DNA from: Gammaproteobacteria bacterium
GTDB lineage: Bacteria; Pseudomonadota; Gammaproteobacteria; GRL18
Length of the DNA stretch: 15,702 nt
Reading direction: 5' to 3'
Assembly: GCA_030632625.1 (NCBI GenBank)
Contig: DAOVUK010000015.1
Span: 1-15,702, forward strand
The notes below the pieces were generated by a model. It was not told the origin of the DNA. It saw only the letters and a program-made list of their open reading frames with translations, and ran no database searches. Shown here one piece after another: positions 1,022 to 15,702 of this stretch; positions within the stretch are counted from its first letter, which is position 1, and every line of letters begins with the position of its first letter. The translations under genes were made by a program, and so were the position numbers.

Positions 1022-2092
1022 TCATTCTAAAATAACAGGATTAATATCTGTAAGCAATTCAATCCGCTCAGCCATGGCTGGGGTTAAATAGATCTTATTA
1101 TCATCCGAAATCAGCATAACATACTGCACGCCCATTTTTTTAGCAATGTCAGGCCAGAGCTCTGGTCCTGCAATAAACAGGGCTGTTGAGGCGGCATCAG
1201 CCAAAGCAGCGTCTTTGCTCAGAACAGTGACAGATTGGGTACCTGTAGCGGGATAACCTGTTCTGGGATCAATGATATGATGGTAATATTTTCCCTCAAA
1301 CTCAAAAAAACGTTCGTAGTTGCCTGAGGTGAATAATGCCTCATTATCTTTTAGCTCAATGGCTGCAATAATTGCTTTTTCTGAGGGGTTATTAGCATTT
1401 GCCGGGTTTTTTATACCAATTTTCCAGAGCTTGCCATTTTTTGAACCCAGAACTTTGAGATCGCCTCCGGCATTGATCAGGGCGTTATTAATATGCTGTT
1501 CTTTAAGAAGGGACATCATTTTTTCAATGGCAACTCCCTTGGCAAAGGCGCCAAAATCAAGAGAGGTGACCGGGTTATTGCTTTTAATTTGCAAATTATC
1601 AATAACAATATCCTGCATTTGAGGATTTTGCGCCACTAAGCTTTGAAGTTTTTCCGGATCAGGTATTTTGAATTTATAATTTTCATCTTCAAGCTGATCG
1701 AACTGCCAGAGTTTAACCAGTTGTCCAATGGCCGGGTTAAACAGGCCATTGCTTTTTTTCGATAAGACCTGACTATCTCTTATCAGGTTAATGACTGATG
1801 AAGTGCTGGCAAACGCAGCTGAATTATAAGTATGGAAATTCTTATTAGCTTGTCCGAGAGCCCCGTTTTTCCAAGGGTGCCATTGACTGTGCAGATGATC
1901 AAATTCAGCACTAATGCGGTCAATTGTTTGCTTTGTCTGCTCTGAATTATCACTAATAATGCTAATGTCAACCAGTGTGCCAAAGGTAAATAACTGCTGT
2001 TGATACAGTTCTTTTGTTGGCTCTGCTGGCTGACAGGCGGTGAGTAATAGAATAAAAAAAACCGCTGGGAAAAAGCCGGGATTAATGTTCAA
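1022..2092 (-). CDS. apbE: FAD:protein FMN transferase (ApbE family lipoprotein)
   Basis: ApbE enzymes attach FMN from FAD covalently to threonine residues of target flavoproteins such as Nqr/Rnf subunits, on the outer face of the inner membrane. The 356-aa product has a hydrophobic leader ending in the lipobox LLTAC (Cys20), so it is probably a lipoprotein. Family signatures are present in order: FGTLVDI (37-43), LDFGAFAKGVAIE (178-190), INAGGDLKVLG (206-216), SGNYERFFE (256-264), HHIIDPRTGYP (271-281) and the AALADAASTALF segment (295-306). Length is normal. The start is TTG at 2090-2092: a TGA codon immediately precedes it in frame and the next Met is far inside. GGAG at 2099-2102 is well spaced. 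It overlaps gshB by 11 bp, so translation is probably coupled. Its stop codon lies inside the terminal inverted repeat of the 452-1026 block. The flavoprotein substrate is not in the window. Confidence 0.92.
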   Translation of the reverse strand: MNINPGFFPAVFFILLLTACQPAEPTKELYQQQLFTFGTLVDISIISDNSEQTKQTIDRISAEFDHLHSQWHPWKNGALGQANKNFHTYNSAAFASTSSVINLIRDSQVLSKKSNGLFNPAIGQLVKLWQFDQLEDENYKFKIPDPEKLQSLVAQNPQMQDIVIDNLQIKSNNPVTSLDFGAFAKGVAIEKMMSLLKEQHINNALINAGGDLKVLGSKNGKLWKIGIKNPANANNPSEKAIIAAIELKDNEALFTSGNYERFFEFEGKYYHHIIDPRTGYPATGTQSVTVLSKDAALADAASTALFIAGPELWPDIAKKMGVQYVMLISDDNKIYLTPAMAERIELLTDINPVILE

Positions 2093-3170
2093 TCATTGCT
2101 CCAGATGCTTGCTCCTTAACTTTTTTTTCAACTTTCTCCTCAACTTTTTCCTCAACTTTTTTTTCAATGACGTCCATCAATAAACCACTGATATTTAATT
2201 TATAAAGTGAATCCAGTTCTCTGATACAGGTTGGGCTGGTGACATTAATTTCAGTAATGTAGTCACCGATAACATCCATGCCGACAAAAATAAGTCCCAT
2301 CTCTTTTAATTTTGGCGCCACTTGCTCACAAATCCAATAGTCACGTTCTGTCAAAGGTACTCCCTTACCTGTCCCTCCAGCAGCAAGATTACCCCGTGTT
2401 TCACCCTTGGGTGGAATTCTGGCCAGAGCATAATCAACCGGGGTGCCGTCAATGATTAAAATTCGTTTGTCACCCTGAGTTATTTCAGGAATAAAACGTT
2501 GTGCCATAATGTATTGGCTGGCATGATCGGTCATGGTTTCCAGAATGACATTGAAATTGGGATCATTTTCCCTGATTCGGAATATGGAATGACCACCCAT
2601 TCCTCCCAGAGGTTTAACAATAATATCTTTGTGTTGTGTTAGGAATTGTTTAAATTGTTCTTTATTTCGACTGACCAGAGTGGGTACGGTGCAGTCTGGA
2701 AATTGATGAGTAAACAGTTTTTCATTGGCATCACGTAATGAGCGCGGTTTATTAATAATCAGAGTGCCGGCCTGTTCTGCCATTTCAAGGATATAAGTTG
2801 CGTAAATATATTCCATATCAAAGGGCGGATCTTTACGCATTAAAATAACATCCAGCTCTGAGAGTGATATTGTGGATGGGCTGTTATCTTGTTCAGGACT
2901 GTTGTCTAGTTCAGGACTGTTGACTAGTTCAGGACTGTTATCTGGTTCAAGACTGTCAGCAAATTGATACCAGCTATCAGGTTTATCTTCTACCTGTAAG
3001 CGTTGTGCATATGCACTTGCCTGATTGTTTTCAATGAATAAATCAGACATTTCCATATAGTAAATGTCATACTTTCGATGCTGTGCTTCAAGCAGCATAG
3101 CAAAACTGCTGTCCTTTTTGATGTTTATGGATTGGATTGGATCCATAACGATGCCGAGTTTTAGGGTCAT
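2082..3170 (-). CDS. gshB: Glutathione synthetase with repeat-derived insertion
   Basis: GshB ligates gamma-glutamylcysteine and glycine with ATP to make glutathione in the cytosol. The 362-aa protein shows the whole bacterial GshB pattern: LGIVMDPI and NIKKDSSFAMLLEAQ (5-30), LDVILMRKDPPFD (106-118), NKPRSLRDANEKLF (140-153), the ATP-grasp glycine loop KPLGGMGGHSIF (186-197), the RIPPKGETRGNLAAGG segment (251-266) and TEINVTSPTCIRE (306-318). Two additions make it about 45 aa longer than the usual 315. One is a hydrophilic insertion at about residues 74-103 built from SPELDN-type hexapeptides, coming from an 18-bp repeat array. The other is a charged KVEE-type tail after residue 335. Both lie outside the recognisable catalytic motifs, so the enzyme is probably active. 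gshB next to pilG is a conserved arrangement in Gammaproteobacteria. Confidence 0.96.
   Translation of the reverse strand: MTLKLGIVMDPIQSINIKKDSSFAMLLEAQHRKYDIYYMEMSDLFIENNQASAYAQRLQVEDKPDSWYQFADSLEPDNSPELVNSPELDNSPEQDNSPSTISLSELDVILMRKDPPFDMEYIYATYILEMAEQAGTLIINKPRSLRDANEKLFTHQFPDCTVPTLVSRNKEQFKQFLTQHKDIIVKPLGGMGGHSIFRIRENDPNFNVILETMTDHASQYIMAQRFIPEITQGDKRILIIDGTPVDYALARIPPKGETRGNLAAGGTGKGVPLTERDYWICEQVAPKLKEMGLIFVGMDVIGDYITEINVTSPTCIRELDSLYKLNISGLLMDVIEKKVEEKVEEKVEKKVKEQASGAMIEH
2116..2165 (-). repeat. 12-bp tandem repeat in the 3' end of gshB
   Basis: On the coding strand, units of the type GTTGAGGAAAAA repeat about four times and encode the KVEEKVEEKVEKKVKE tail of GshB. The array contains two runs of eight A on the coding strand, which are possible slippage sites shortly before the apbE start. 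Confidence 0.7.
2881..2956 (+). repeat. 18-bp repeat array 1 (inside gshB, opposite to the gene)
   Basis: On the plus strand the units are GTTCAGGACTGTTGTCTA (2891-2908), GTTCAGGACTGTTGACTA (2909-2926), GTTCAGGACTGTTATCTG (2927-2944) and a partial copy from 2945. A degenerate half-unit precedes them. gshB runs on the minus strand, so the array is read as SPELVN, SPELDN and SPEQDN. The units match the chpA repeat core GTTGARGACTCT at most positions. Confidence 0.85.
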
Positions 3171-3626
3171 ATTATTCTCTTATAGAACGATTTTCTTTAT
3201 TTATTATAGCTGTTTAGTGTCTGAAAAGAAGCTTGCCCTCAGAGATAAATAATAAATATTATTTTCGGACTAAATTATTGTCTGGATAAGTGCTTAGAAT
3301 CTTCAGAATTATTTAAGATTTATAATGTTTCAATAAGTAATATCTGCTACAAAGTCAATGTTTTTTGGTACGTTTTTTGTTTTATAAAATGTGATGCAAA
3401 TTTATTAAAATATGAATTGAAAAATGTGAAATGTGCCAAAAAGTTATGCTAAAAATAGTTTTTTTACTTGTATTTCTTGTATTTCTTACAGTTTGAACTA
3501 AAGTCTTAAGCAGGTAATCTGTTTTTCTTATTAAAACCGTATTAATTACTTACTCATGTTACTTACCTGTCTGCATTCGGGTCTTTTACCCTTTCGCTTT
3601 GGCAATTACATTATTTTGGGGGATAA
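3171..3626. other. Divergent intergenic region between gshB and pilG
   Basis: The 456 bp are very AT-rich and must hold the promoters of both the gshB-apbE unit (left) and the pil-chp operon (right). Apart from the gshB -10 candidate I cannot fix a convincing promoter for pilG. Two TGTGA half-sites and a short direct repeat of CTTGTATTT lie in the middle, but none forms a full known operator. No RNA gene is visible. Confidence 0.5.
3203..3208 (-). promoter_or_regulatory. Candidate -10 element for gshB-apbE
   Basis: A perfect TATAAT on the minus strand sits 33 bp before the gshB start, which would give a short leader of about 25 nt. The -35 region (TTCTTT or CTTCTT at 16-17 bp spacing) matches the consensus poorly, so the promoter call rests on the -10 alone. 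Confidence 0.35.
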
Positions 3627-4028
3627 GTGGGAACTTCTGATTCAAATATTTTAGATGGCTTGAAAGTCATGGTCATTGATGACAGTAAAACGATACGCCG
3701 TACAGCTGAAACTTTGTTGAAAAAATCAGGTTGTGAGGTTGTCACTGCAACGGATGGTTTCGAAGCCCTATCCAAAATACTGGAACATCGTCCCAACATT
3801 ATCTTTGTCGATATTATGATGCCGAGATTAGATGGTTATCAAACCTGTGCGCTGATCAAAAATAACAAAATGTTCAAAGATATTCCTGTTATTATGCTAT
3901 CCAGTAAAGATGGTTTATTTGATCGTGCACGCGGTAGAATTGTGGGTTCGGAGCAGTATTTGACCAAGCCTTTTACTAAAGATGAACTGCTTGGCGCCAT
4001 TACTCAATATGTCGGAAAAGCGAAGTAG
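3627..4028 (+). CDS. pilG: CheY-like response regulator PilG
   Basis: PilG is one of the two single-domain response regulators of the Pil-Chp system. It receives phosphate from ChpA and, in Pseudomonas, promotes pilus extension and cAMP production. The 133-aa protein is one receiver domain: acidic pair Asp18-Asp19 in MVIDDSKTIRRT, phosphoacceptor Asp62 in FVDIMMPRLDGYQT, Ser92/Ser93 in MLSSKDGLFD, and Lys114 in YLTKPF. The KDGLFDRARGRIVGSEQYL stretch is very close to Pseudomonas PilG. The start is GTG: GGGGGA at 3618-3623 precedes it, and no ATG occurs before Met15, which lies inside the first strand of the domain. It is the first gene of the plus-strand operon, 53 bp before pilH. Confidence 0.95.
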   Translation: MGTSDSNILDGLKVMVIDDSKTIRRTAETLLKKSGCEVVTATDGFEALSKILEHRPNIIFVDIMMPRLDGYQTCALIKNNKMFKDIPVIMLSSKDGLFDRARGRIVGSEQYLTKPFTKDELLGAITQYVGKAK

Positions 4029-4081
4029 AAGAGTAATGGTACAAATAAAGTATAATAATTAAATAATTAGAGACTTTTAAA

Positions 4082-4447
4082 ATGGCGCATATTCTTGTTG
4101 TTGATGATTCACCCACAGAAACCCATGTTATTTCTTCCACTTTAGAAAAGCAGGGACACCATGTTTCTGTCGCAGTGGATGGTAAAGACGGGGTAGAAAA
4201 AGCAACACAACTCATACCGGACTTAATTTTGATGGATGTGGTGATGCCGGAACTTAATGGTTTTCAGGCGACACGTCAGTTAACAAATCAACCTTCTACT
4301 GCCAATATTCCAGTCATAATGGTGACCACCAAAGATCAAAAAACAGATAAAATGTGGGCAGAAAGACAGGGTGCAAAAGGATATATAACTAAACCTTTCA
4401 CAGCAGATGGGTTGATTCAAGAAGTGAATCGTTGGTTATTAGCCTAA
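4082..4447 (+). CDS. pilH: CheY-like response regulator PilH
   Basis: PilH is the second receiver-only regulator of the system; in Pseudomonas it opposes PilG, either in pilus retraction or as a phosphate sink. The 121-aa sequence is one receiver domain with Asp8-Asp9 in VVDDSPTET, phosphoacceptor Asp52 in LMDVVMPELNGFQATRQL, Thr82/Thr83 in VTTKDQKTDK and Lys104 in YITKPF. The NGFQATRQLT and TTKDQ-TDK-W--RQGA segments separate it from PilG and match PilH. The ATG at 4082 is preceded only by a weak AGAG-type ribosome site, so it may rely on translation from upstream. Confidence 0.95.
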   Translation: MAHILVVDDSPTETHVISSTLEKQGHHVSVAVDGKDGVEKATQLIPDLILMDVVMPELNGFQATRQLTNQPSTANIPVIMVTTKDQKTDKMWAERQGAKGYITKPFTADGLIQEVNRWLLA

Positions 4448-4510
4448 TGAAAAACTCGTTTATCAACTTATGTATCAGCCTTTATATCGGCTTATATACC
4501 AGGAGAAAGA

Positions 4511-5059
4511 ATGAGTTTTGAGCCGCAAAATTCACAGCAGATTGTCCAGTTGTTAGAACAAATGGAGGAGTATAGCCGAAATAATGCCGCTCCTCTGCCA
4601 ATGAAAGAGAGTGTCAAATCACTGTGGTCTGGTATTGGTTTTCGTATTGCGCAACACAAATTTGTGGTGCAAATGGATTTTGTGAGTGAAATCATGAAGT
4701 ACCCGGCAATTTCTCAGGTCCCCGGAAGTAAAGAATGGGTGAGAGGTATTGCCAATATCCGTGGTAATTTGTTACCGGTTTTTGATCTGCAAGGTTTTCT
4801 CGGGAAGAAGTTAACTCCCATCAGAAGGGAAACACGTGTTTTATCAATTGCTAAAAACACATTAAGTGCGGGTTTGGTTGTCGATGAAATCTACGGAATG
4901 AAATATTTTGATCAATCAAATTTTGTTGCAAAAATGGGACATGAAGTCACCTGGAAAAACTATCTGAGTGGCGGTTATGAGCTGAATGGTGAAAACTGGG
5001 TTGTTTTTAATATGCAGCGGCTTGTTGAGAGCAGGGATTTTCTTAATGTAGCAAACTAA
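4511..5059 (+). CDS. pilI: CheW-like adaptor PilI
   Basis: PilI links the receptor PilJ to the kinase ChpA at the inner membrane, often at the cell pole in relatives. The 182-aa protein has an N-terminal helix (about 1-36) followed by one CheW fold (about 37-180). SLWSGIGFRIAQHKFVV opens the domain, and WVRGIANIRGNLLPVFDLQG (76-95) is the typical CheW signature. Length is close to Pseudomonas PilI (about 178 aa). A good AGGAGA at 4501-4506 fixes the ATG at 4511. It lies 63 bp after pilH and 112 bp before pilJ with no clear terminator between, in line with one operon. Confidence 0.94.
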   Translation: MSFEPQNSQQIVQLLEQMEEYSRNNAAPLPMKESVKSLWSGIGFRIAQHKFVVQMDFVSEIMKYPAISQVPGSKEWVRGIANIRGNLLPVFDLQGFLGKKLTPIRRETRVLSIAKNTLSAGLVVDEIYGMKYFDQSNFVAKMGHEVTWKNYLSGGYELNGENWVVFNMQRLVESRDFLNVAN

Positions 5060-5171
5060 TATGCAGTACTGGTGCCTTTAAATGGTTTAATTATTCAAGG
5101 TGCTTTTTAAAAAATATAACAAAAAAATAACAGAAAATCTCTGCAAATGATGAGTTAGGAGCCGATTAAAA

Positions 5172-7202
5172 ATGCAAGGTGAAACTACAAATAAAAAGAG
5201 CATCTATTTGCCCTTTACACTCCTGGTAGTCTTCGTGGTTGCCATGGCCATTGTTTATTGGATGGCCTTTACCAAAGAAAATAATGATGCACAATACCTT
5301 TCTCTTGTTGTCGAACAGAGGGTACTTTCACAAGGCCTGGCGAAATCAGCAACTCTGGCTGCAACAGGTAATGAAGTGGCATTTGCAACATTAAGAAAGT
5401 ACCAGAAAGAGTTTGCACGCAATATGAACCAACTGTCCGGGCTTGATCCGCTAACAGATGAAAATACTTTGCCTGAAAGCGTCAGAAGTGTTTATGACAC
5501 CCTGAAAAAAAGCTGGAAAGACTACAATAAACATATTAATACACTTTTGCAGAGTCAGGAAACCATTCTGATTTTATCAGAAGATATTAAAGCCATTAAT
5601 GAACAGATGCCTGATATGTTAAATGCATCCAATGAAGTGGCAGAAATACTGGTTGACAGTGACGTTCCGACTCGTCAGGTTTATCTGGCAACTCAGCAGC
5701 TGATGTTTATTGAACGGATTTCGGGTAATATTTCAGTGATGATGTCGGGCAGTAGTGATGCAGCACAAAGTGCTCAGCGATTTGGTCTGGATACCGCAAC
5801 ATTCAAGCGGGTGCTGGATTCCCTGATTAATGGCAATAAAATGTTAGGTATTGGCCGCGTTGAAGACCCGGATGCCTCAGAATTATTAGATGAAATATCT
5901 AAACTTTATAATGGCATTAAAACAAAAGTTGCAGATATTCTGGAACGTTCTCCTGAAACATTTGAAATCAACAATAGTGCGATGTCACTTTATAATAATT
6001 CTGAAAATTTGTTGCAGCAAATTGGTTCTCTTGGTGACATCTATCAAGAATCAGTTGCAGATGATACCACGCTTTCTCTCACCGGAAATGCATTAGCCGG
6101 GGCAATAGTCATTCTGTTTTTCCTGATTGGTGCTTTACTGATTGCACAAGAGAAACGAGTTGCTCGTGAAACTGAAGAACAGCGTAATGAAGTTGAAGCT
6201 CAGAATAATAAAAATGAAGCCGCGATTATGCGTCTTCTGGATGAAATGGGTGCACTGGCAGATGGTGATTTGACCGCACATGCGACCGTAACAGAAGATA
6301 TTACCGGTGCGATTGCAGACTCGATTAACTATACCATTGATGCCCTGCGCAGCCTGGTTACACAAATTAATGATACCACGGTACAGGTATCATCGGCGGC
6401 ACATGAAACACAGGCGACAGCCATGCATCTTGCTGAAGCGAGTGACCAGCAGGCTGCTCAGATTACCACAGCCAGCACCGCGGTAAATCACATGGCTGCA
6501 TCTATTGAAGAGGTTTCATCCAATGCAAATGACCTGGCAAACGAAGCAAGTAACTCAGTTGAAATTGCCAACAAAGGTTCCATGGTGGTACAAGATGCTA
6601 TTAGCGGTATGGATACTATTCGTGAGCAAATTCAGGAAACATCAAAACGAATCAAACGATTGGGTGAATCTTCCCAGGAAATTGGTGATATTGTTGAAAT
6701 TATTAATGACATTTCGGAGCAGACCAATATTCTGGCATTGAATGCGGCAATTCAGGCGGCTATGGCAGGTGATGCCGGTCGTGGTTTCGCAGTCGTTGCG
6801 GATGAAGTTCAACGCCTGGCGGAACGTTCAGGTAACGCCACAAAACAGATTGAAGCACTGGTGAAAACGATTCAGGCTGATACCAATGAAGCAGTTATTT
6901 CTATGGAGAGAAGTACTTCTGAAGTGGTTCAAGGTGCGCGTCTTGCACAAAACGCAGGTGGAGCACTGGAAGAAATTGAGCAGGTGTCTGCTACCCTGGC
7001 AAAATTAATTCAGGCTATTTCTGATACAACCAAACAGCAATCCTCTGCTGCAGTCAGCATTTCAGGTTCCATGAATGTTGTACAGGAAATTACCACTCAG
7101 ACCTCTGCGGGTACAAATGAAACGGCCGCATCTATTGGTAACCTGGCTGAACTGGCAAATGAACTGAGACAATCGGTCGCTGGTTTCACCTTACCTGACT
7201 AA
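5172..7202 (+). CDS. pilJ: Type IV pilus methyl-accepting chemoreceptor PilJ
   Basis: PilJ is the transmembrane receptor that feeds ChpA; in Pseudomonas it senses surface contact through pilin and certain ligands. The 676-aa protein has a short cytoplasmic N-terminus, a first membrane segment at about residues 13-33 ([20 protein letters not shown]), a periplasmic PilJ-type sensor of about 270 residues, and a second membrane segment at about 305-325. A HAMP region with [16 protein letters not shown] follows, then a long coiled-coil signalling domain. The hairpin tip is unmistakable (about 516-553, [20 protein letters not shown] then [18 protein letters not shown]). The [10 protein letters not shown] variant is typical of PilJ-class receptors. 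It ends at VAGFTLPD without a pentapeptide tether for methylation enzymes. AGGAG at 5157-5161 lies somewhat far from the ATG. Confidence 0.95.
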
Positions 7203-7269
7203 GATAGGCTGACATTATAAACGATGAAAACTATAACACTCTGCTGGTTTTAAAAGGGCTTCTGAGTTA

Positions 7270-8145
7270 ATGGCTGTATTAAACGGCTCCTTATCATGTT
7301 TCGAGCAAATGGATGATGTTCAATTTAATCATTGGACCTCTTTTCTTGAACAACGAACGGGTATGCATTTACCCAGAGAAAGACGTTCATTTCTTGAGAC
7401 CAGTTTAGGTTTAAGGATGAAAGAAATAGGCATTCAAGACTTTGCCGCTTATTTCCAGCATCTACAATCAGCCAGGGATGGAGAAAGAGAATGGTTAACT
7501 CTGGTTGACCGCTTAACGGTCCATGAAACCCGTTTTTTTCGCCATCAGCCTTCACTGGATTTTCTGGAAGAAATTATATTGCCCAGGCTTTTTGAGGCTG
7601 AACCAGATAGGAAAAAATTACAGATCTGGAGTGCAGGTTGTTCGACCGGGGAAGAAGCTTATACCCTGGGTATGATTGTAAACCAGTTTTTACAACATTT
7701 ATCCAATGATCGGCACTGTTATCTTGCTGTGACAGGGATGGATATTAGTATTCCTGCCTTAGTCAAAGCACGCAAGGCAGTTTACGAGCAATACAAAGTC
7801 CGCCATGTTCCCGAGCGATACCTTGAGCAATATTTTATTGGACAGGACAATGGTTGTTATCAAATTATTGATACGCTGAAAAAACGAGTTTGTTTTGTGC
7901 CGTTTAATATTGTTGATATGAAGAAAACCCTTCTGGAACCAATGGACATTATTTTTTGCCAGAATATGTTGATTTATTTTAATCGCGACAGGCGCAAAAA
8001 AATTATACACCAGCTGGTTCAACGGCTAAAACCAGGTGGTTTTTTGGTGTTAGGAGCGGGGGAGTCGTTAAATAATCCTCACCCTGAACTGGAAAAGATT
8101 AATTTTCCGAATTCATTAGCTTTTTCAAGAAAAAAAATTGAATGA
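7270..8145 (+). CDS. pilK: CheR-type chemoreceptor methyltransferase PilK
   Basis: PilK uses S-adenosylmethionine to methylate glutamates on the receptor PilJ and so adapts the pathway. The 291-aa length equals that of Pseudomonas PilK. Visible motifs are the N-terminal helical domain with RTGMHLPRERRSFLETSLGLR (29-49), the LTVHETRFFRHQPSLDFL segment (82-99), the SAM-binding loop WSAGCSTGEEAYTLGM (120-135), VTGMDISIPALVKAR (155-169), the catalytic-domain strand DIIFCQNMLIYF (226-237), and LKPGGFLVLGAGESL (253-267). The ATG at 7270 has a weak AAGGG about 12 bases upstream. It lies 67 bp after pilJ and 153 bp before chpA; the latter gap holds only a 12-bp palindrome, TTGATATATCAA at 8265-8276, and nothing else I can name. 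Confidence 0.95.
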   Translation: MAVLNGSLSCFEQMDDVQFNHWTSFLEQRTGMHLPRERRSFLETSLGLRMKEIGIQDFAAYFQHLQSARDGEREWLTLVDRLTVHETRFFRHQPSLDFLEEIILPRLFEAEPDRKKLQIWSAGCSTGEEAYTLGMIVNQFLQHLSNDRHCYLAVTGMDISIPALVKARKAVYEQYKVRHVPERYLEQYFIGQDNGCYQIIDTLKKRVCFVPFNIVDMKKTLLEPMDIIFCQNMLIYFNRDRRKKIIHQLVQRLKPGGFLVLGAGESLNNPHPELEKINFPNSLAFSRKKIE

Positions 8146-8298
8146 GTGAGCGGCACGTATTAATGATACATGGGTTAAGGGCCTTGCTAAATGTTTTAGC
8201 TCATAATTTTACAAAGCGCTAATGGCTTTAGAACAATAAACAAAAAAAGAGACTATCAGCCTGGTTGATATATCAAAGAATAAGACTGTGGAGTAGCA

Positions 8299-11200
8299 AT
8301 GGCGACCGATTTTGAACATGGCGGCCTGAAATGGGTAATTGACGAAATTCATGAAACCCTAAAACAGGCTCGTGTGCATTTTGAATCCTTTGTTGAAGAC
8401 GAAGAGGATAATTCCCAATTACAATTTTGCACGACCTATCTTCACCAGGTTGCCGGTAGCCTGAACATGCTTGAGCTGGGTGGCTCGACCTTGCTTGCCG
8501 AAGAAATGGAATTGCTTTCACAGGCTATTTATGATGATGAAATTGTCCGGCGTGAAGACAGTTTTGAAGTCCTCATGAGAGCTTTGATTCAACTGCCTGA
8601 TTACCTGGAGAGTCTGGATCGCGGTGCTCGTGACCTGCCTATGGTGCTTCTGCCTTTATTAAATGATCTGCGAGCCACCCGTGGAGAAAAACTGCTTACA
8701 GAGGGGGCAGTTTTTTCTGTCAATCTCGCTCTTGATAATGTGAGGCCAGAACCTGACAATGGTATTGATCCAGGGTTATTAGCAAAAAAAATTCGGCATC
8801 ATTATCATCTGGGTCTTCTGGGCTGGTATCGTGATAGTACAAGTATTGCCAGTATTAATAGAATCAAAAAAGTTGTTGTTAAACTAAAAGGAAGTATCAA
8901 AACGCCTAACTTCTACCAGCTTTTTAGTTTAATGGAAGCTTTTATTGAAGGTTTAATGGATAGAAGTATTGATTCCAGTGTATCAACTAAGCATTTGTTA
9001 GGCCAGGCTGATCGTTATATTAAACATTTGATTGATTCAGGTGAATCAACTGATTCTTATACTTATAATGATGAACAGGAACTTAAGAGTCTAAAGAAAA
9101 ATTTACTGTTTTATATTGCCCATAGCAAAAATTCTAATGATCTTGAGAGCTCTGCAATTAACTCGGTCAAGGCATTCTATAAGCTGTCTGACATTATTCC
9201 TGATGAAGATGAACTGGAAGATGCACGAGCCAGCATGGGGGGTGCTAATGCAGATTTAATGGAAACAGTGACGGGTGTCATTTTAGATGACCTGGCGAAT
9301 GTTAAAGAGCAGTTAGATATTTTCGTTCGTAATGTGAGTGAGCTTTCAGGTGAAAGTTCTTCACTCGCTGAGGGCTCCATACTTGCTGAAGGCTCTCTAC
9401 ACGCTGAAGGCTCTCCGCTAGCTAAAGGCTCAGAACATCGGGAAAGTCTACAGGTCATTATTGGTACGATGACGCAAATTTCAGATACGCTCGCCATGTT
9501 AGGACAAAATGCGCCCAGGGGTGTATTACAGGATAAAATTGAACAACTTAAATCAATGTTTGACACAGAGCAGGTGCTTGAACATACGATACTAATGGAA
9601 GTTGCAAGTGCTCTGTTATATGTTGAATCTGCAGTATCAGAAATGGGCCATGGTGGGTTGTTCAGCCATTCTGATGAAGATGAGGAAATTGATCTGTCAA
9701 AAATTGAGATGACAGAGCAAGAAAAAAATGAACTGCAGATTGTTGTTATTGATGAAGCTAAAAAAGAATTGTTAAAAGTAAAAGAAGGGATCATTTCACT
9801 GATTGATACTTTTGCTAATGATGTCCAGAATCCAGAAGAAAATGAACACAGTATTAATTTGGTTTATTCCAGTTTGAATTCTATTGGTGGGGTTCTGGAG
9901 CTGTTAAATAAAGAACAGGGTGCTCAAATTGTAAAAGACTGTGCTGCTTTTGTGGTCAACAATATGGTGGTTAATAACGTATTGCTTTCAGAAAATGAGC
10001 AGCAGCATCTGGCATATACTATTACCGCACTCGAATATTATCTTGATGCCATTGCAGAAAAACAGCATGATATATCTATTATTGAAAGTGTTGCACAATC
10101 GGGAGTCGATCAATTATTAGGTCGTGAGAGTGATGTCCCTGCTTATGATTCTGAACTGAGTGAAGCATTGGCAAGATGGATGCAGGATGTTTCTATAGCT
10201 GCTGCAAAAGAAAATTTACTCAAAGCTGTCATTTCTGTCGCTGAACAAGTGAAATTATTACAGAATGAAAAAGCAGAAGAAATTGCTCATCAAATGGAGT
10301 CAATGATTAATCTGGTCAGAGACAATCCGGATTCTCTCAGTGATGATATTTCCAGTACTTTACGCTGGGCAGCAGAAACAATTAATCGAATTATCCGCAA
10401 TGCGACTGAATTAAAAGAAAGTGAACCTGCAGACGCTGAAAAAAAAACACTAGAGGAAATTGATTATTTAAAAAACCCGGACGTCCAACAGGCAGTTCAT
10501 AATGACTCTTTATTTGCTGAGGGCTCTTTACCTGTTGAAGACTCTTTACTGGTTGAAGACTCTATACCCGTTGAAGACTCTTTACTGGTTGAGGACTCTA
10601 TACCCGTTGAGGACTCTTCAACTGGACAGGAGCCTGCTGGCCTTGAAGAGAGTTCAGAAAATATCCCACCAGAAGAAATTCAATCAACACCTCAGGCAGC
10701 AAAGACGCATTTAATCCCTGATCCTGCAAAAGATTATCCTGATATAAAAAAACTGGAAACATCAGATGATGTTGATCCGGAAATAATGGAAATCTTTATT
10801 GAAGAAGCTCAAGAGGAAATTGAAAAACTATCCACGCTCTACCCGCAATGGAAGTCAGCACAAAACAGCATGAATGCGTTAACTGATATGCGTCGCTCAT
10901 TTCATACACTCAAAGGAAGCGGGCGACTGGTTGGTGCATATGAAATGGGTGAGTTTGCATGGGCTTTTGAAAATCTAATCAGTCGTGTTATAAATAAGAC
11001 GATTACTGCTGATGAATTACACTTTGCAACAGTTGAATCTGCTCTTAATATGCTTCCTGAAATTATTGATGCATACGAACAACAAAGATTTTCAAATGTT
11101 GATTCTTCACGAATTGCTGCCTATGCACATATCTTAAGTAAGGGTGAAACATTTGATATTAAACTATTGAATCAGGAGACAGATAAAACAGCGACTGATC

Positions 11201-14200
11201 TTATTGAGGTTGGAGAAAAAACTAAATCTGTTGACTCTGAAATAGTTGAAGACTCTAAACTGGTTGAAGACTCTGCATTAGTTGAAGACTCTGAACAGGT
11301 TGAAGACTCTAAAATCACAATAGAAGCATTAAATGAAGAAGAGGAAGATGAAGATGAAGAGTGGATGGATCCCGTACTGTTAGAAATATTTACTAATGAA
11401 GCCTTAGGCCATATTAAAAATATTGAACAATTTATCGAGCAATGTCATTTACTAAATGATACCTGCCCGCCGGATGATATTTTAACCAGAAGTTTGCATA
11501 CGCTGCGCGGTAGTGCTCACATGGCAGATATTCACGCCATCGGAAATGTCAGTGAGCAAATGGAAAAGGCTGTAAAAGTAATTGCTGAGAAAGGGCAGAT
11601 ACTGGACCCGGAATTTATCCAGTTATTGGCTGAACTCGCTCAGTTCAGCACATCAGTATTAGAGCAGTTGAGTAAATCGACAACAACGATTCCTGAAGAA
11701 AATGAAGAACTTCAACATAGAATTTTAGAAAAATATGAACAGGTATTGCATCTTGAAAACCTGTTAGATGCCAGCGAAGTCAGTGAAGAAATCAGTATCA
11801 GTGAGGAACGGCTTAATATTGAACAAGACACTCCTGGTTCAACTGAGGGTTCTGAAGTATTTGAAGAAGAGAAACAGGCTGAAGCTGAAGACTCAGTGTT
11901 TGGTGAATATGATGATGAATTACTGCAAATATTTATTGAAGAAGGTGAAGAGTTACTTGAATCCAGTGGACAGGTACTGCAGAATCTGAAGGAAAATAGC
12001 CGTGATGCAAAAGCACTGAATCGCTTGTTGAGAGATATGCATACTCTCAAAGGTGGGGCCAGAATGGCTGGCGTAACAGCAATTGGCGACTTAACTCATA
12101 GTTTTGAAAGTAAACTGGAACAGTTTACTCAGGGTGATATGGTTTTCTCTCACAACCATATTGATCTGCTTTTGCAGGTACACGATGTTCTCTCTTCAAT
12201 GGTCGATGACTTGAAAAGTGCTAAAAAAGTTGAGAGTAATGCCGATATTATTGCCCAGCTTGATAGTATCAGTGAAGAAGAATCAATTGATACACACACT
12301 GAGACTGACAGCGCAGATTCCTCATCCGCAGAGCCGCTTTTAGATAGCGCTGAAGAAAAGTTTATAGCGATTAATGAGCAATCACCTGCTGAAAGTTCTT
12401 CAGAAGAAGAACTACTGGCTGAATTCTATGATGATGATCTGATGGAGATCTTCCTTGAAGAAGCACAGGAACTCATGGACTCAAGTGATGCTGCACTTTC
12501 TCAATTAAAGCATGAACCGGGTAATTCCGATCAATTAAAGCAGCTCTTAAGAGACTTGCATACGATTAAGGGTGGCGCCCGAATGGCAGGCATTTCACCA
12601 ATTGGTGACTTGACCCATAGCCTTGAAACTCAGCTTGAAAAAATTACCAGTCTGAACCAGACACCCAGCCAGCAATTTTTTGAGCTTTTGCACCAGGCTC
12701 ATGATACCCTTAATGATATGCTGGATGATCTAAAAGCGGGTAGAGCTGTCAGATCAGCCGATGAGCTCATTACACAAGCGGAAATTATTAAGCAGGGTGA
12801 AACTGGTGAAGATGCTCAGCAAAAGACTGAGGAAACGAGCCAATCTGAAGATACTGAACAAACGAGTGACGTTGAATCCGATGAGCCCACTGCTGCTGAA
12901 AGTGAAACAGATGCTGTAGAAATTATTGAGCATGATGATAGCATTAAGCTTATCGATGAACATGAGGAAAGTCTTCAACCCGAGGAAAGTCTTCAACCCG
13001 AGGAAAGTCTTCAACCCGAGGAAAGTCTTCAACCTGAGAACGTTCCTGAACCTGAGGAACTGCTGAAACCTGAACACACAATTTTTGGCACTGAACCAGA
13101 AGAAATCAAGCCAGAACAAGTCGCTGCAAATAAAACCAAAGTAACTGCAGCTAATACTGAACGGGTCAGGGTTAGTGCTGATATTTTAGATGAGCTGGTC
13201 AATTATGCAGGTGAAGTGAGTATTTACCGTTCTCGCCTGGATCAGGGCAGCAATGAAGTTCAAGTCTCACTGGATGAAATGAATACGACTATTATTCGTC
13301 TTCGGGAACAGTTGCGTCGCTTTGAAATGGAAACAGAAGCTCAAATCCAGTCACGTATGGATCAGGCTGAATCCCTGGGTTATGAGCGTTACGAAGAATT
13401 TGATCCATTAGAATTTGATCGTTTCTCAAATATGCAGCAGATCACCCGTGCCATGGCTGAAACTGTATCGGATTTGGATAGTATTGAAAACACAATGAAA
13501 AACCTGAACAGTGAATCAGAGACACTGCTGATTCAGCAGGGACGCGTCAATACTGATTTGCAGGAAGGCTTAATGCGAACTCGTATGGTTCCTTTTAAGA
13601 GCCAACTGACTCGATTTCGTCGAATTATCCGACAAACCTCTAAGGAACTGAAAAAACAGGTTAATTTTGAACTTTATGGTGGTGATCAGGAAATCGATCG
13701 TCGCGTATTAGAGAAAATGATGGCACCTCTTGAGCATATGCTGCGCAATGCTATTGCCCATGGTATTGAGACACCAGAAGAACGTGAAACAGCAGGAAAA
13801 AAACCAGTCGGTAATATCAAACTGATTATCGGGCGTGATGGTTCTGAAATTGAGATTAAAGTTATCGATGATGGTGCCGGAATTAATATTGAAGCAGTAC
13901 GAAAAAAAGCGATTGAACATGGCTTGATGCTGAAAAATGCCAAACTGACCGAACAGGATATTATTCACTTTATTATGGAGTCAGGTTTCAGTACTGCGAC
14001 TGAAGTGAGTCAGATTTCAGGCCGTGGTGTTGGTATGGATGTGGTTAATGCTGAAATAAAGCAGCTCAACGGCACGCTGGATATTGATTCACAAGAAGGC
14101 AGCGGTTCAATCTTTAAAGTGCTGATGCCACTGACAATGTCGGTCAGTCGAGCTCTGATGGTTGAAGTGGGTGAGGAAATTTTTGCTATCCCGCTTGTCG

Positions 14201-14976
14201 GTATTGAAAATATTATTCGAGAAACAAATGATGTGCTCGAGCGTTTAACTGCAAGTAATGATACCTATTATCAATGGCATAATGAACAATATCAGTTCAT
14301 GCATCTTGGTACCGCATTAGGCATTAATAGGCCTTCATTGCCGGGAGATAAAACCAAAGCACCTATTTTATTAGCACGTTCAGGTGAACACCGTGTTGCC
14401 CTGTTCGTCGATGGACTCATGGGCAGTCGGGAAATTGTTGTCAAATCGGTTGGTCCGCAATTAAGCACAGTAAAAGGAGTCACAGGTGCAACTATTTTGG
14501 GTGATGGAAAAATAGCCTTGATTTTAGATCTGGGTGTTCTCGCACGTGAAGGCGCAATGATGAAAGTTGCTGCAGAACAGGACATGGAAATCAAAGCAGC
14601 TGAAAGTGTCACTACAACCGTTATGGTTGTTGATGACTCAATTACTGTAAGAAAAGTAACACAACGTTTATTGCAGCGCTATGACTATCAGGTTATCACT
14701 GCTAAAGATGGTGTGGATGCTATTGCAACTTTGCATGAATCAATACCTGATGTGATGTTGCTCGATATTGAGATGCCGCGTATGGATGGTTTTGAATTAG
14801 CAACGCATATGCGGGATGATGACAAACTTAAACATATCCCTATTATTATGATTACATCAAGAACAGGTGACAAACACAGAGACAGAGCGATGAAAATTGG
14901 AGTCAATGAGTATATGGGCAAACCATATCAGGAACATGATCTGATTGCTAATATCAGAAAACTAACTGATGTATAA
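8299..14976 (+). CDS. chpA: Hybrid chemotaxis histidine kinase ChpA with several Hpt domains
   Basis: ChpA is the central kinase of the Pil-Chp system. It autophosphorylates under control of PilJ-PilI and passes phosphate to PilG and PilH. The 2225-aa protein has: an N-terminal FimL-like part (1-about 330) with an Hpt-like YLHQVAGSLNM (His49); a degenerate Hpt-like segment LNSIGGVLELL (Asn527 where His would be); four canonical Hpt domains with phosphorylatable His869 (FHTLKGSGRLVG), His1067 (LHTLRGSAHMAD), His1248 (MHTLKGGARMAG) and His1421 (LHTIKGGARMAG); a dimerisation helix region (from about 1621); an HATPase core with N-box Asn1817, G1 DDGAG (1857-1861) and G2 GRGVGMD (1908-1914); a CheW-like domain (about 1947-2090); and a C-terminal receiver (Asp2112/2113, phosphoacceptor Asp2156, Lys2208). 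Four 18-bp repeat arrays code for its linkers. GGAG at 8290-8293 supports the start. Pseudomonas ChpA is somewhat longer, with more Hpt-type domains. Confidence 0.96.
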   Translation: MATDFEHGGLKWVIDEIHETLKQARVHFESFVEDEEDNSQLQFCTTYLHQVAGSLNMLELGGSTLLAEEMELLSQAIYDDEIVRREDSFEVLMRALIQLPDYLESLDRGARDLPMVLLPLLNDLRATRGEKLLTEGAVFSVNLALDNVRPEPDNGIDPGLLAKKIRHHYHLGLLGWYRDSTSIASINRIKKVVVKLKGSIKTPNFYQLFSLMEAFIEGLMDRSIDSSVSTKHLLGQADRYIKHLIDSGESTDSYTYNDEQELKSLKKNLLFYIAHSKNSNDLESSAINSVKAFYKLSDIIPDEDELEDARASMGGANADLMETVTGVILDDLANVKEQLDIFVRNVSELSGESSSLAEGSILAEGSLHAEGSPLAKGSEHRESLQVIIGTMTQISDTLAMLGQNAPRGVLQDKIEQLKSMFDTEQVLEHTILMEVASALLYVESAVSEMGHGGLFSHSDEDEEIDLSKIEMTEQEKNELQIVVIDEAKKELLKVKEGIISLIDTFANDVQNPEENEHSINLVYSSLNSIGGVLELLNKEQGAQIVKDCAAFVVNNMVVNNVLLSENEQQHLAYTITALEYYLDAIAEKQHDISIIESVAQSGVDQLLGRESDVPAYDSELSEALARWMQDVSIAAAKENLLKAVISVAEQVKLLQNEKAEEIAHQMESMINLVRDNPDSLSDDISSTLRWAAETINRIIRNATELKESEPADAEKKTLEEIDYLKNPDVQQAVHNDSLFAEGSLPVEDSLLVEDSIPVEDSLLVEDSIPVEDSSTGQEPAGLEESSENIPPEEIQSTPQAAKTHLIPDPAKDYPDIKKLETSDDVDPEIMEIFIEEAQEEIEKLSTLYPQWKSAQNSMNALTDMRRSFHTLKGSGRLVGAYEMGEFAWAFENLISRVINKTITADELHFATVESALNMLPEIIDAYEQQRFSNVDSSRIAAYAHILSKGETFDIKLLNQETDKTATDLIEVGEKTKSVDSEIVEDSKLVEDSALVEDSEQVEDSKITIEALNEEEEDEDEEWMDPVLLEIFTNEALGHIKNIEQFIEQCHLLNDTCPPDDILTRSLHTLRGSAHMADIHAIGNVSEQMEKAVKVIAEKGQILDPEFIQLLAELAQFSTSVLEQLSKSTTTIPEENEELQHRILEKYEQVLHLENLLDASEVSEEISISEERLNIEQDTPGSTEGSEVFEEEKQAEAEDSVFGEYDDELLQIFIEEGEELLESSGQVLQNLKENSRDAKALNRLLRDMHTLKGGARMAGVTAIGDLTHSFESKLEQFTQGDMVFSHNHIDLLLQVHDVLSSMVDDLKSAKKVESNADIIAQLDSISEEESIDTHTETDSADSSSAEPLLDSAEEKFIAINEQSPAESSSEEELLAEFYDDDLMEIFLEEAQELMDSSDAALSQLKHEPGNSDQLKQLLRDLHTIKGGARMAGISPIGDLTHSLETQLEKITSLNQTPSQQFFELLHQAHDTLNDMLDDLKAGRAVRSADELITQAEIIKQGETGEDAQQKTEETSQSEDTEQTSDVESDEPTAAESETDAVEIIEHDDSIKLIDEHEESLQPEESLQPEESLQPEESLQPENVPEPEELLKPEHTIFGTEPEEIKPEQVAANKTKVTAANTERVRVSADILDELVNYAGEVSIYRSRLDQGSNEVQVSLDEMNTTIIRLREQLRRFEMETEAQIQSRMDQAESLGYERYEEFDPLEFDRFSNMQQITRAMAETVSDLDSIENTMKNLNSESETLLIQQGRVNTDLQEGLMRTRMVPFKSQLTRFRRIIRQTSKELKKQVNFELYGGDQEIDRRVLEKMMAPLEHMLRNAIAHGIETPEERETAGKKPVGNIKLIIGRDGSEIEIKVIDDGAGINIEAVRKKAIEHGLMLKNAKLTEQDIIHFIMESGFSTATEVSQISGRGVGMDVVNAEIKQLNGTLDIDSQEGSGSIFKVLMPLTMSVSRALMVEVGEEIFAIPLVGIENIIRETNDVLERLTASNDTYYQWHNEQYQFMHLGTALGINRPSLPGDKTKAPILLARSGEHRVALFVDGLMGSREIVVKSVGPQLSTVKGVTGATILGDGKIALILDLGVLAREGAMMKVAAEQDMEIKAAESVTTTVMVVDDSITVRKVTQRLLQRYDYQVITAKDGVDAIATLHESIPDVMLLDIEMPRMDGFELATHMRDDDKLKHIPIIMITSRTGDKHRDRAMKIGVNEYMGKPYQEHDLIANIRKLTDV
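9367..9438 (+). repeat. 18-bp repeat array 2 (chpA, residues about 357-380)
   Basis: Four units run from GCT: GCTGAGGGCTCCATACTT, GCTGAAGGCTCTCTACAC, GCTGAAGGCTCTCCGCTA and a diverged GCTAAAGGCTCAGAACAT. They are read as AEGSIL, AEGSLH, AEGSPL and AKGSEH. The array interrupts a loop in the N-terminal FimL-like half of ChpA. Confidence 0.88.
10504..10623 (+). repeat. 18-bp repeat array 3 (chpA, residues about 736-775)
   Basis: Six units start at 10516, 10534, 10552, 10570, 10588 and 10606, after a partial unit from 10504. The first is GCTGAGGGCTCTTTACCT; the rest alternate between GTTGAAGACTCTTTACTG and GTTGARGACTCTATACCC, so a 36-bp higher-order repeat is visible. They are read as AEGSLP, VEDSLL and VEDSIP. 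The array fills the linker before the His869 Hpt domain. Confidence 0.92.
11230..11316 (+). repeat. 18-bp repeat array 4 (chpA, residues about 978-1006)
   Basis: A shortened 15-bp unit at 11230-11244 is followed by four full units at 11245, 11263, 11281 and 11299. Each begins GTTGAAGACTCT and varies in the last six bases. They are read as VEDSKL, VEDSAL, VEDSEQ and VEDSKI. The array lies in the linker between the His869 and His1067 Hpt domains. Confidence 0.92.
11884..11901 (+). repeat. Isolated single unit of the 18-bp repeat (chpA)
   Basis: GCTGAAGACTCAGTGTTT matches the family core GYTGARGRCTC and is read as AEDSVF in the usual sense frame. It lies in the linker just before the His1248 Hpt domain. 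One copy may be a remnant or a seed of an array, but chance is possible for a single unit in an acidic linker. Confidence 0.5.
12964..13071 (-). repeat. 18-bp repeat array 5 (chpA, opposite orientation)
   Basis: GAGGAAAGTCTTCAACCC occurs three times exactly (12964, 12982, 13000) and once with a single change (13018). Two diverged units follow (13036, 13054). It is read as EESLQP. On the other strand the unit is GTTGAAGACTTTCCTCGG, which carries the same GTTGAAGACT core as arrays 3 and 4, so the array is inverted relative to the other three in chpA. It fills the linker between the last Hpt domain and the kinase core. Confidence 0.9.
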
Positions 14977-15010
14977 TTTGATTCATGTCACTATGAAATA
15001 TAATATTTAG

Positions 15011-15702
15011 ATGCAAAAACTTAAAGATATTAATCTTGCTATCGCATCCGGATCTGAAAATATCCAAAAGTGCCTGCAGGAAATGTTTAGACGACATGGT
15101 GCTAATGTTGTGCTTTGTGGTTTTTTGAATTTAAGTTTTGTCGATCAATTAGAGCATGCTGTTGACGCTGATGTTATTCTGATAGATATGGATGACAGTT
15201 ATGCAGAGGATGATGATGCGCTGGATCAATTGCTGGAAAAAATTGATTTGCCGATTCTCTTTCATGATAATGAATTTGATGAGCTCCATGATCCCCAGGA
15301 GGAGAGTTTTTCAATTCAGTCAGTTGAAAAGTTAGCCGCTAAACTCTCAGAATTAGTGACCAGTAAAAAGAATAAAGATAGAAAAAATGCTGAACAGAGC
15401 ATTAGCGATGAGCAACTAAAAAATGCCAATACTATTGATAAACTTCTGGAATCGGAGCATAAGAGATACCCGTATTTAACGGAAGAGGAATTGCAGGAAG
15501 TTCGCTTATGGGACTTATACAGTAGTGATTCGAAAACTACAGAGTCTTTAGCAGACGAGCAGCTCATTGTAATTGAAGAGCTGATAGCCAATGAAGAGCC
15601 TTCAGCGGGTAAAGAGCCTTCAGCGGGTAAAGAGCCCTCAGCCAATGAAGAGCCTTCAGCTAATGAAGAGCCCTCAGCCAATGAAGAGCCTTCAGCTAAT
15701 GA
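15011..15702 (+). CDS. chpB: CheB-type methylesterase ChpB, N-terminal part (runs off right edge)
   Basis: The open frame from ATG at 15011 runs 230 codons to the edge. Residues 1 to about 120 look like the receiver-like N-terminal domain of ChpB: VILIDMDDSY has an Asp59 in the phosphoacceptor place and LPILFHDNEFDE follows. The acidic pair expected in the first loop is absent (NLAIASGSENI), so it is probably a pseudo-receiver. A charged stretch (about 117-190) follows, then the hexapeptide repeats EPSAGK and EPSANE. The CheB esterase domain expected downstream would demethylate PilJ and oppose PilK. Position after chpA is the conserved one. TAG stands immediately before the ATG, so there is no longer start; no clear ribosome site is seen and the gap to chpA is 34 bp. 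The identification rests on synteny and weak domain resemblance. Confidence 0.75.
   Translation, partial: MQKLKDINLAIASGSENIQKCLQEMFRRHGANVVLCGFLNLSFVDQLEHAVDADVILIDMDDSYAEDDDALDQLLEKIDLPILFHDNEFDELHDPQEESFSIQSVEKLAAKLSELVTSKKNKDRKNAEQSISDEQLKNANTIDKLLESEHKRYPYLTEEELQEVRLWDLYSSDSKTTESLADEQLIVIEELIANEEPSAGKEPSAGKEPSANEEPSANEEPSANEEPSAN
15578..15702 (-). repeat. 18-bp repeat array 6 (chpB, opposite orientation, continues past the edge)
   Basis: Units start at 15596, 15614, 15632, 15650, 15668 and 15686, with a diverged one from 15578. On the minus strand they read GCTGAAGGCTCTTTACCC (two copies) and GCTGARGGCTCTTCATTR, differing from the first unit of array 3 in chpA at only 2 of 18 positions for the best copy. 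In chpB they are translated as EPSAGK and EPSANE. CCC/CTT and GCC/GCT variants alternate, giving a 36-bp higher-order period. Confidence 0.92.

Follow-up and report, generated by a model that had tools for sequence, protein, structure and literature searches.

A dispersed 18-bp tandem repeat family with a shared core in Gammaproteobacteria: evidence consistent with amplification in place

A window of 15,702 nucleotides from a gammaproteobacterial draft genome (GenBank contig DAOVUK010000015.1; contig 475 of genome G000, which comprises 3.36 Mb in 533 contigs and is 82% complete) contains six tandem arrays that share a period of 18 base pairs (bp) and the core GYTSARGRCT and lie in gshB and in the chemosensory genes chpA and chpB. 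It was found that these arrays represent a family with one DNA motif, one period, two covarying position pairs, no large pool of single copies, and copy-number ladders at native sites, the last mostly at the protein level. On balance, existing matches to GYTSARGRCTS' probably amplify in place, which would make this a sequence-specified minisatellite family.

All six arrays, numbered 1 to 6 in order of position, were recovered both by Tandem Repeats Finder and by a core scan. Period 18 was reported by the former at 2881-2956, 9363-9431 (two overlapping rows), 10504-10618, 11233-11315, 12964-13038 and 15586-15702, and the latter detected 27 exact cores and one with a single mismatch. The shared core and the 18-bp period given in the initial annotation were thus reproduced, and its estimate of about 30 units was lowered to about 28, a total that omits partial units at array edges. 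All six arrays were located inside open reading frames (ORFs), with units of 18 bp, and the sole isolated exact core elsewhere in the window was at 11884. In the whole of G000, paired cores 18 bp apart (at most two mismatches) numbered 81 + 149 = 230, and the backward-read pattern gave 0 + 1 = 1; the excess outside the six sites, for which the initial annotation had suggested a search, was therefore large.

The distribution of the tandem pattern was then considered among other genomes. With at most one mismatch, it was present in all 16 genomes of the genus, in 7 of 8 other genomes of the family and in none of 16 genomes of other families. Across the class, 35 of 369 genomes matched; because the backward control matched 10, many of the lone matches among these genomes are due to chance. 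Counts far above the control were obtained in four other families (G335, 87; G178, 31; G174, 30; G290, 14; G255, 8), and Endozoicomonas elysicola gave 5 matches, 2 of them exact. Exact tandem cores were detected in 12 of 398 Pseudomonadota, that is, in 12 of 137 within the class (own included) and in none of 261 outside it. Four of these 12 genomes had only one match apiece; the control gave 3 matches in 2 of the 398 genomes. Carriage was patchy within Gammaproteobacteria, and no carrier was found outside the class in this one Pseudomonadota sample. In family f139, for example, G174, G381, G650, G659 and G757 carried the repeat, and G511, G617, G670, G700 and others had no exact match. The family of G178 may lie near Arenicella, judging from one of its array proteins, for which the closest among the few named homologs came from Arenicella sp. 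G110 (8 matches; C59:588-948) was rejected as a carrier, since its repeats look like collagen-type AQGSTG coding and were taken as convergent. Collagen-like AQG repeats, in G110 and in viral loci among L207-L228, mimic the core, probably via coding alone.

The relation of the arrays to genes was studied in a survey set of 134 arrays with 623 units; the set covered 1.48 Mb of 11 genomes, in stretches chosen for holding arrays. An array was defined by at least two units, two of them having at most one mismatch in sum, and for the analyses of frame, pairing and edges any end unit that had 2 mismatches was removed. Loci from named genomes, viral contigs and protein searches (L001-L110, L151-L229, L250-L319 and L360 on) stood outside this set. 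ORFs of at least 150 residues contained 111 of the 134 arrays and covered 85% of the bases. Therefore, the arrays neither avoid nor seek genes. Their hosts, assigned by Pfam or PDB matches, included gyrA and rne (two species each), an ftsY-like gene, tsaB, a nuoK-like gene, tatC, rodZ, murD, malQ and penicillin amidase, and in other families sbcD, yhdP, polB and genes of HlyD proteins.

Sense arrays encoded the peptides AEGS, VEDS and AQGC, and antisense arrays encoded EPSA, SPEP, SLQP and TALS, with three of the six frames used by 107 of the 111 arrays in long ORFs. Antisense orientation relative to the ORF was more frequent than sense (73 vs 38, p 0.001), which was read as filtering by frame. 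The core strand was G-rich at 63 of 107 loci (p 0.08), and no replication-strand preference is claimed. In sense arrays, alanine was encoded by GCT in 108 of 111 cases and glycine by GGC in 110 of 116 (30% and 29%, respectively, in long ORFs of 11 genus loci); in antisense arrays, serine was encoded by TCA in 180 of 189 cases (23% in the same ORFs). The units counted here were recruited with at most two core mismatches, which limits synonymous change and does not forbid it. Differences between neighbouring units were found at positions 1, 3, 5, 7 and 10 in 10-19 of 355 comparisons and at positions 12-18 in 48-149. Because both orientations and several codon frames are used and the codons are fixed by the orientation of the DNA, the arrays form one DNA-sequence family and are not explained by shared protein function. 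This is in agreement with the initial annotation, including the codon check proposed there.

Arrays outside ORFs contained other step lengths. Steps of 17 bp were found at L137 and L141, and a 19-bp step at L141. L141:7787-7909 (G013) and L245:7868-7938 (G290), neither in a long ORF, both combined 17- and 18-bp steps. In the surveyed genomes the core was also repeated at a period of 21 bp (L119:7844-7896 and L148:14178-14251), the second of these arrays being inside an ORF.

Covariation between positions of the unit was determined as weighted mutual information, with each array counted once (134 arrays, 621 units, 11 genomes). Two pairs stood out, 4-11 at 0.567 and 2-8 at 0.385, against maxima of 0.065 and 0.035, respectively, in 200 permutations. 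The next 12 pairs reached 0.055-0.110, lay mostly within the tail and in some cases exceeded their own null maxima. Both leading pairs were complementary, 2-8 being C-G or T-A and 4-11 being G-C or C-G, and each combination of 2-8 with 4-11 was present among 294 units of the first set (CG/GC 127, TA/GC 58, CG/CG 26, TA/CG 10). Since the recruiting pattern left position 11 free and permitted all four 2-8 combinations, it could not have created this covariation. Pairing at 4-11 was found in 420 of 472 exact array units vs 17 of 53 lone cores, and pairing at 2-8 in 435 of 472 vs 34 of 53. The 4-11 rule was also present, with both forms, in G178, G290 and G335; G174 had almost only the C form (CG 22, CA 5, CT 5, GA 1).

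The two ends of the arrays were not equivalent. In 66 arrays of at least three units, profiled before G004 and G005 joined the set, the right edge was sharp at position 11, with 92% agreement with internal units there and a fall toward background beyond it. The left edge was fuzzier; a partial unit was present at 52% on the left vs 26% on the right, with a background of 8%. The last unit usually kept 4-11 paired (GC 90 and CG 28 of 134). Mismatches at this pair also differed between the ends, with GT 15 and AC 4 in first units and AC 10 and GT 2 in last units. Decayed units were more often on the left, weakly so (35 vs 20 arrays, 29 equal). Edge polarity is a known feature of human minisatellites.

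The clearest copy-number ladders were found in tsaB. The first core of the array consists of the Ala-Gln-Gly codons of SSLAAIAQG, and tsaB of E. coli K-12 keeps AQG (GCGCAAGGG). In one ladder, P0122 has AQGCSGQND (one copy) and G000 has AQG(SLSAQG)(CLSAQG)(CLSAQG)CSGKND; in the other, P0137 has AQGCYHDAPEQANK (one copy), P0129 has two copies, P0126 five and G012 six. The rungs of P0122, P0126, P0129 and P0137 are at the protein level only. Motif scores were obtained for tsaB at 19 of 20 loci (L260 was unfit for the pattern). Leaving aside G000 and G012, which have arrays, and G009, which has one core and a relic, 16 orthologs of the family had neither array nor relic, and at the array site 13 of them ranked within the top 0.5% of genomic windows. 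The protein survey that supplied the ladder rungs covered 70 of 120 listed TsaB and 59 of 120 listed GshB sequences, of which 2 and 7, respectively, were unmatched by the pattern. Taken together, this points to growth of the tsaB array from native codons that were present as one copy; both flanks are native here, so any of the copies may be the oldest.

Weaker ladders were observed in two other proteins. In an HlyD protein of another family, P0241 (88% identical) has one AEGS and G178 has four. In chpA linker 1, compared in seven species, there were 0-4 cores (at most one mismatch), and an AEG- or AEE-like peptide was kept in each; the orthologs of array 2 had 0-3 of these cores, at the matching AEG-like peptide, and G008 had none. 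The chpA linkers evolve too fast to align, so array birth could not be read there directly by orthology. The linker of array 3 contains antisense EPSANK units in G013, so that window 10504-10623 (G000) and L146:10312-10434 (G013) are arrays of opposite orientation in one chpA linker, which reflects either two seedings or an inversion. Units were also found in the linker of array 4 in G004, G008, G009, G013 and G014. At the spot aligned to array 5, no core within one mismatch was found in G004, G013 and G014, and G009 had diverged units in the linker. The gshB loop array (2-4 cores, at most one mismatch) was present in 4 of 20 readable orthologs of the family; 23 loci were collected, of which L198 and L202 had no readable loop and L203 no ORF. 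No clear precursor was seen in murD or in a yoaA/dinG-like helicase gene. PolB of E. elysicola and SbcD of G174 had extra residues at the array relative to solved homologs, which gave no polarity. The whole-genome searches covered one genome per species, and array birth was never seen between strains.

Single copies of the core were few. The 1.48 Mb contained 510 exact cores in or near arrays and 53 lone exact cores; column-permuted cores gave a mean of 33 (sd 20, range 10-116) and the reversed core gave 28. The lone-core number was therefore near chance, with an excess of at most about twofold. Array sizes peaked at 2-4 units (25, 25 and 28 arrays), and this together with the few lone cores shows that single insertions do not form a large pool. 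Array tails were compared in G000, G013 and G014 using units with at most one mismatch and were no more alike within than between these genomes, the observed value being reached in 515 of 1000 permutations. Copying from a donor within the genome was left unsupported by this permutation test.

These findings suggest the following course of events. A starting site would match GYTSARGRCTS' by chance or through its codons, with position 8 complementary to position 2 and position 11 to position 4, and a loose TTNAYY tail would follow the core. Such a site would become the centre of tandem duplication in place, in steps of about 18 bp, after which protein selection would keep mainly arrays in hydrophilic frames and in tolerant loops or linkers; outside ORFs, 17- and 19-bp steps would survive as well. 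Because two letter pairs covary, some process seems to read the motif. Duplication may be triggered by a lineage-restricted trans-acting factor, perhaps an enzyme acting on the single-stranded motif, and the complementarity may correspond to base pairing in a strand that is bent back on itself and recognised by this enzyme. The arrays would be polar, with the right end, at position 11, tighter and perhaps fresher. In its most specific form, this scheme would involve a lineage-restricted enzyme system that reads the 11-base motif via two intramolecular base pairs and generates tandem duplications of 18 bp at the site; any gene mutating into the motif would then grow a disordered peptide loop, in effect through a programmed in-frame insertion generator. 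This extended version is put forward tentatively, as a possibility that we would not bet on at present.

Several observations speak against amplification in place or against its details. Lone cores were about twice as frequent as the reversed control (53 vs 28), which leaves room for a modest pool of real single insertions. In first units, the value for 2-8 dropped to 0.175, under that of the tail pair 14-15 (0.197), and pooled mismatched pairs had no strand preference (T2-G8 13 vs C2-A8 10; A4-C11 16 vs G4-T11 16). Single-stranded folds were no stabler than those of shuffled sequences (mean z +0.52 and +0.43 for the two strands, in the first 60 of 87 arrays with 3-6 units). In addition, the 2-8 and 4-11 pairs cross, and one simple hairpin therefore cannot account for the two of them. 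Given this crossing and the unexceptional stability of the strands, the motif is not explained by an ordinary hairpin, and a stable hairpin was not supported. The weak tail consensus is not expected from pure copying of host flanks in place, unless the tail belongs to the motif. At the gshB site (G013, G014) and at the penicillin amidase and malQ sites, the relatives, which are diverged, had no core within one mismatch, so insertion or patching from other arrays may have occurred there. Copies can also be lost, and some single-copy relatives may be contractions. Finally, no trans-acting factor was found; Y1 transposases, checked in 30 genomes, did not parallel carriage. PF01797 was detected in 26 of these, including most non-carriers; it was absent from G004, G255, G381 and G139, and G335 had a fragment only. 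As carrier G004 lacks Y1 transposases and heavy carrier G335 has just a fragment, they were discarded as a necessary factor.

Amplification in place was weighed against four other explanations. The initial annotation regarded the repeat as a small portable DNA element; an 18-bp unit or a short array would then be inserted at new sites by mobilising machinery and expand afterwards. That many unrelated loci, and families far apart, have one core in common agrees with this, as do the weak tail consensus, the restriction of the gshB loop array to 4 of 20 readable orthologs and the roughly twofold ratio of lone cores to the reversed control. Against it stand the near-chance number of lone cores with no large pool of single insertions, the lack of tail likeness within genomes, the state of Y1 transposases in G004 and G335, and the tsaB array, which overlies native codons. 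Spread by phages or plasmids was not supported either: one array had no match in plasmid records and another had none in phage records. Viral contigs gave matches in 3, 22 and 1 stretches, which were mostly other coding repeats (collagen-like AQG; SPEP or TPSPQP; LERLQS), and two viral-contig loci, L205 and L206, were indistinguishable from the family. Insertion of a portable element is considered unlikely, and motif-specified growth in place is the reading to prefer. The initial interpretation as a whole is partly supported. Templated patching, in which a chance core lets the nascent strand switch during repair to an array elsewhere, copy units and return, would account for a consensus in the tail, for the scarcity of single copies and for arrays that sit at native cores. 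It does not fit the array tails, whose similarity is no greater in one genome than across genomes, or the last unit, which keeps position 11 paired, unlike a random host flank; we hold this explanation to be quite unlikely.

The arrays might also be ordinary minisatellites, that is, old inherited coding repeats subject to replication slippage and no motif-reading process. The array sites in gyrA, rne and the chpA linkers are indeed common to related species, and the copy number varies as in any variable-number tandem repeat. Such an origin leaves unexplained why one core occurs at unrelated loci, in both orientations and in scattered families, and why two position pairs covary, and we judge it improbable. 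The use of three of six frames by 107 of 111 arrays and the hydrophilic nature of the peptides would be expected if acidic or Pro/Ser-rich linkers had been favoured repeatedly by selection. However, at least five different peptides are produced from one DNA core, synonymous positions are fixed, and arrays outside long ORFs have 17- and 19-bp steps. Peptide selection as the source of the family is hardly credible.

In kind, the arrays are a minisatellite family with a shared core, and the apparent base-pair rule, the residence in coding sequence and the scattered bacterial hosts are new. Neither a description of the family nor a name for it was found in the open-access literature searched, which is in line with the initial annotation, where no named family was recognised. 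The human minisatellites of the Jeffreys core are tandem repeats at dispersed loci whose units share a core of about 15 bases, and this core looked as though it drove repetition (PMC2782130, an interview). The likeness consists in one core in tandem arrays at unrelated loci and in varying copy number at orthologous sites. The present arrays differ from them in being bacterial, mostly intragenic and of fixed length (about 18 bp) and in having two complementary position pairs. TAACTGA direct repeats are described from Beggiatoaceae, Cyanobacteria and Bacteroidetes (PMC4679880), and lie mostly just upstream of start codons in the Guaymas genome. There, too, a short word is found in tandem at many loci, patchily over distant lineages and with no evident mechanism. 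That repeat is a heptamer with another word and period and is mostly intergenic, whereas the coding share of the present arrays equals the ORF coverage.

PARCELs (PMC2996958) are 25-residue amphipathic repeats (DUF285) whose host ORFs are generally not recognisable housekeeping genes. They resemble the present arrays as intragenic tandem repeats with DNA-level symmetry and a punctate distribution; the present unit differs in its length of 18 bp, or six residues, and is often in known genes. No DUF285 row was obtained at E <= 1e-5 in the 30 array proteins scanned. The palindromic elements of Rickettsia and Wolbachia (in part from PMC2996958) are likewise in-frame additions in unstructured places of assorted housekeeping genes. 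Those elements are single, longer, palindromic insertions, whereas the present arrays are tandem and have neither a large single-copy excess nor a stable fold. Of the traits of such elements, in-frame presence in housekeeping genes was observed (gyrA, rne, ftsY-like, tsaB, nuoK-like, tatC, rodZ, murD and others by Pfam), and no stable stem-loop was found in array DNA (60 of 87 arrays with 3-6 units). As to single insertions above chance, the 53 lone exact cores compare with a permuted mean of 33 (10-116) and with 28 for the reversed core. The traits of REP/RAYT systems were also missing, as a Y1 transposase was not present in every carrier and the location was not intergenic (111 of 134 arrays in ORFs of at least 150 residues). 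DNA uptake sequences (DUS/USS) occur as hundreds to thousands of dispersed single copies, and 53 lone exact cores in 1.48 Mb do not correspond to this.

How minisatellites are born from single-copy sequence, and whether the core drives repetition, is a long-standing question. The family offers a compact test of it, with one motif at many loci, ladders at native sites and covarying pairs that hint at what is read. Through these arrays, stretches that look disordered are added to and lost from essential genes (gyrA, rne, tsaB, ftsY), six residues at a time.

In the window itself, the genes are an apbE-like gene, gshB and, presumably, a pilG-pilH-pilI-pilJ-pilK-chpA-chpB chemosensory operon. The glutathione synthetase gene gshB (2082..3170, minus strand) matched PDB 1gsa in phmmer with E 8e-126, and its residues 72-100, which include the array, were unmatched between two aligned stretches. 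Array 1 (2881..2962; core on the plus strand, gene on the minus strand) encodes an NSPEL peptide and has four cores GTTCARGACT at 2891, 2909, 2927 and 2945. The giant chemosensory histidine kinase gene chpA (8299..14976, plus strand; 2225 residues) has four arrays in linkers. Array 2 in linker 1 (9367..9438, plus) encodes AEGS.. peptides and has four cores, three exact and one with a mismatch; array 3 (10504..10623, plus; VEDSLP) has six cores from 10516 and a partial left unit; array 4 (11230..11316, plus; VEDS..) has four cores from 11245 and a partial left unit; and array 5 (12964..13051, minus; EESLQP) has four minus-strand cores at 12970-13033.

The CheB-like gene chpB (15011..15702, plus strand), presumably a CheB by its domain sequence, is cut by the contig end inside array 6; its orthologs in G013 and G014 go on into a methylesterase-like domain. 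Array 6 (15586..15702, minus; EPSANE) has six minus-strand cores at 15597-15696 and runs off the contig. Contigs C88, C164, C338 and C360 of G000 also end in or beside arrays, as the window does at 15586-15702. Short-read assemblies seem to break at arrays, and because of such contig ends draft genomes probably contain more arrays than are counted. Two further short repeats were observed in the window. The C-terminus of gshB (2113-2161) has a 12-bp tandem repeat of its own, EEKVEEKVEKKV, which bears no relation to the 18-bp core, and a short GAAGAT repeat in chpA (11338-11360), encoding an acidic run, adjoins array 4.

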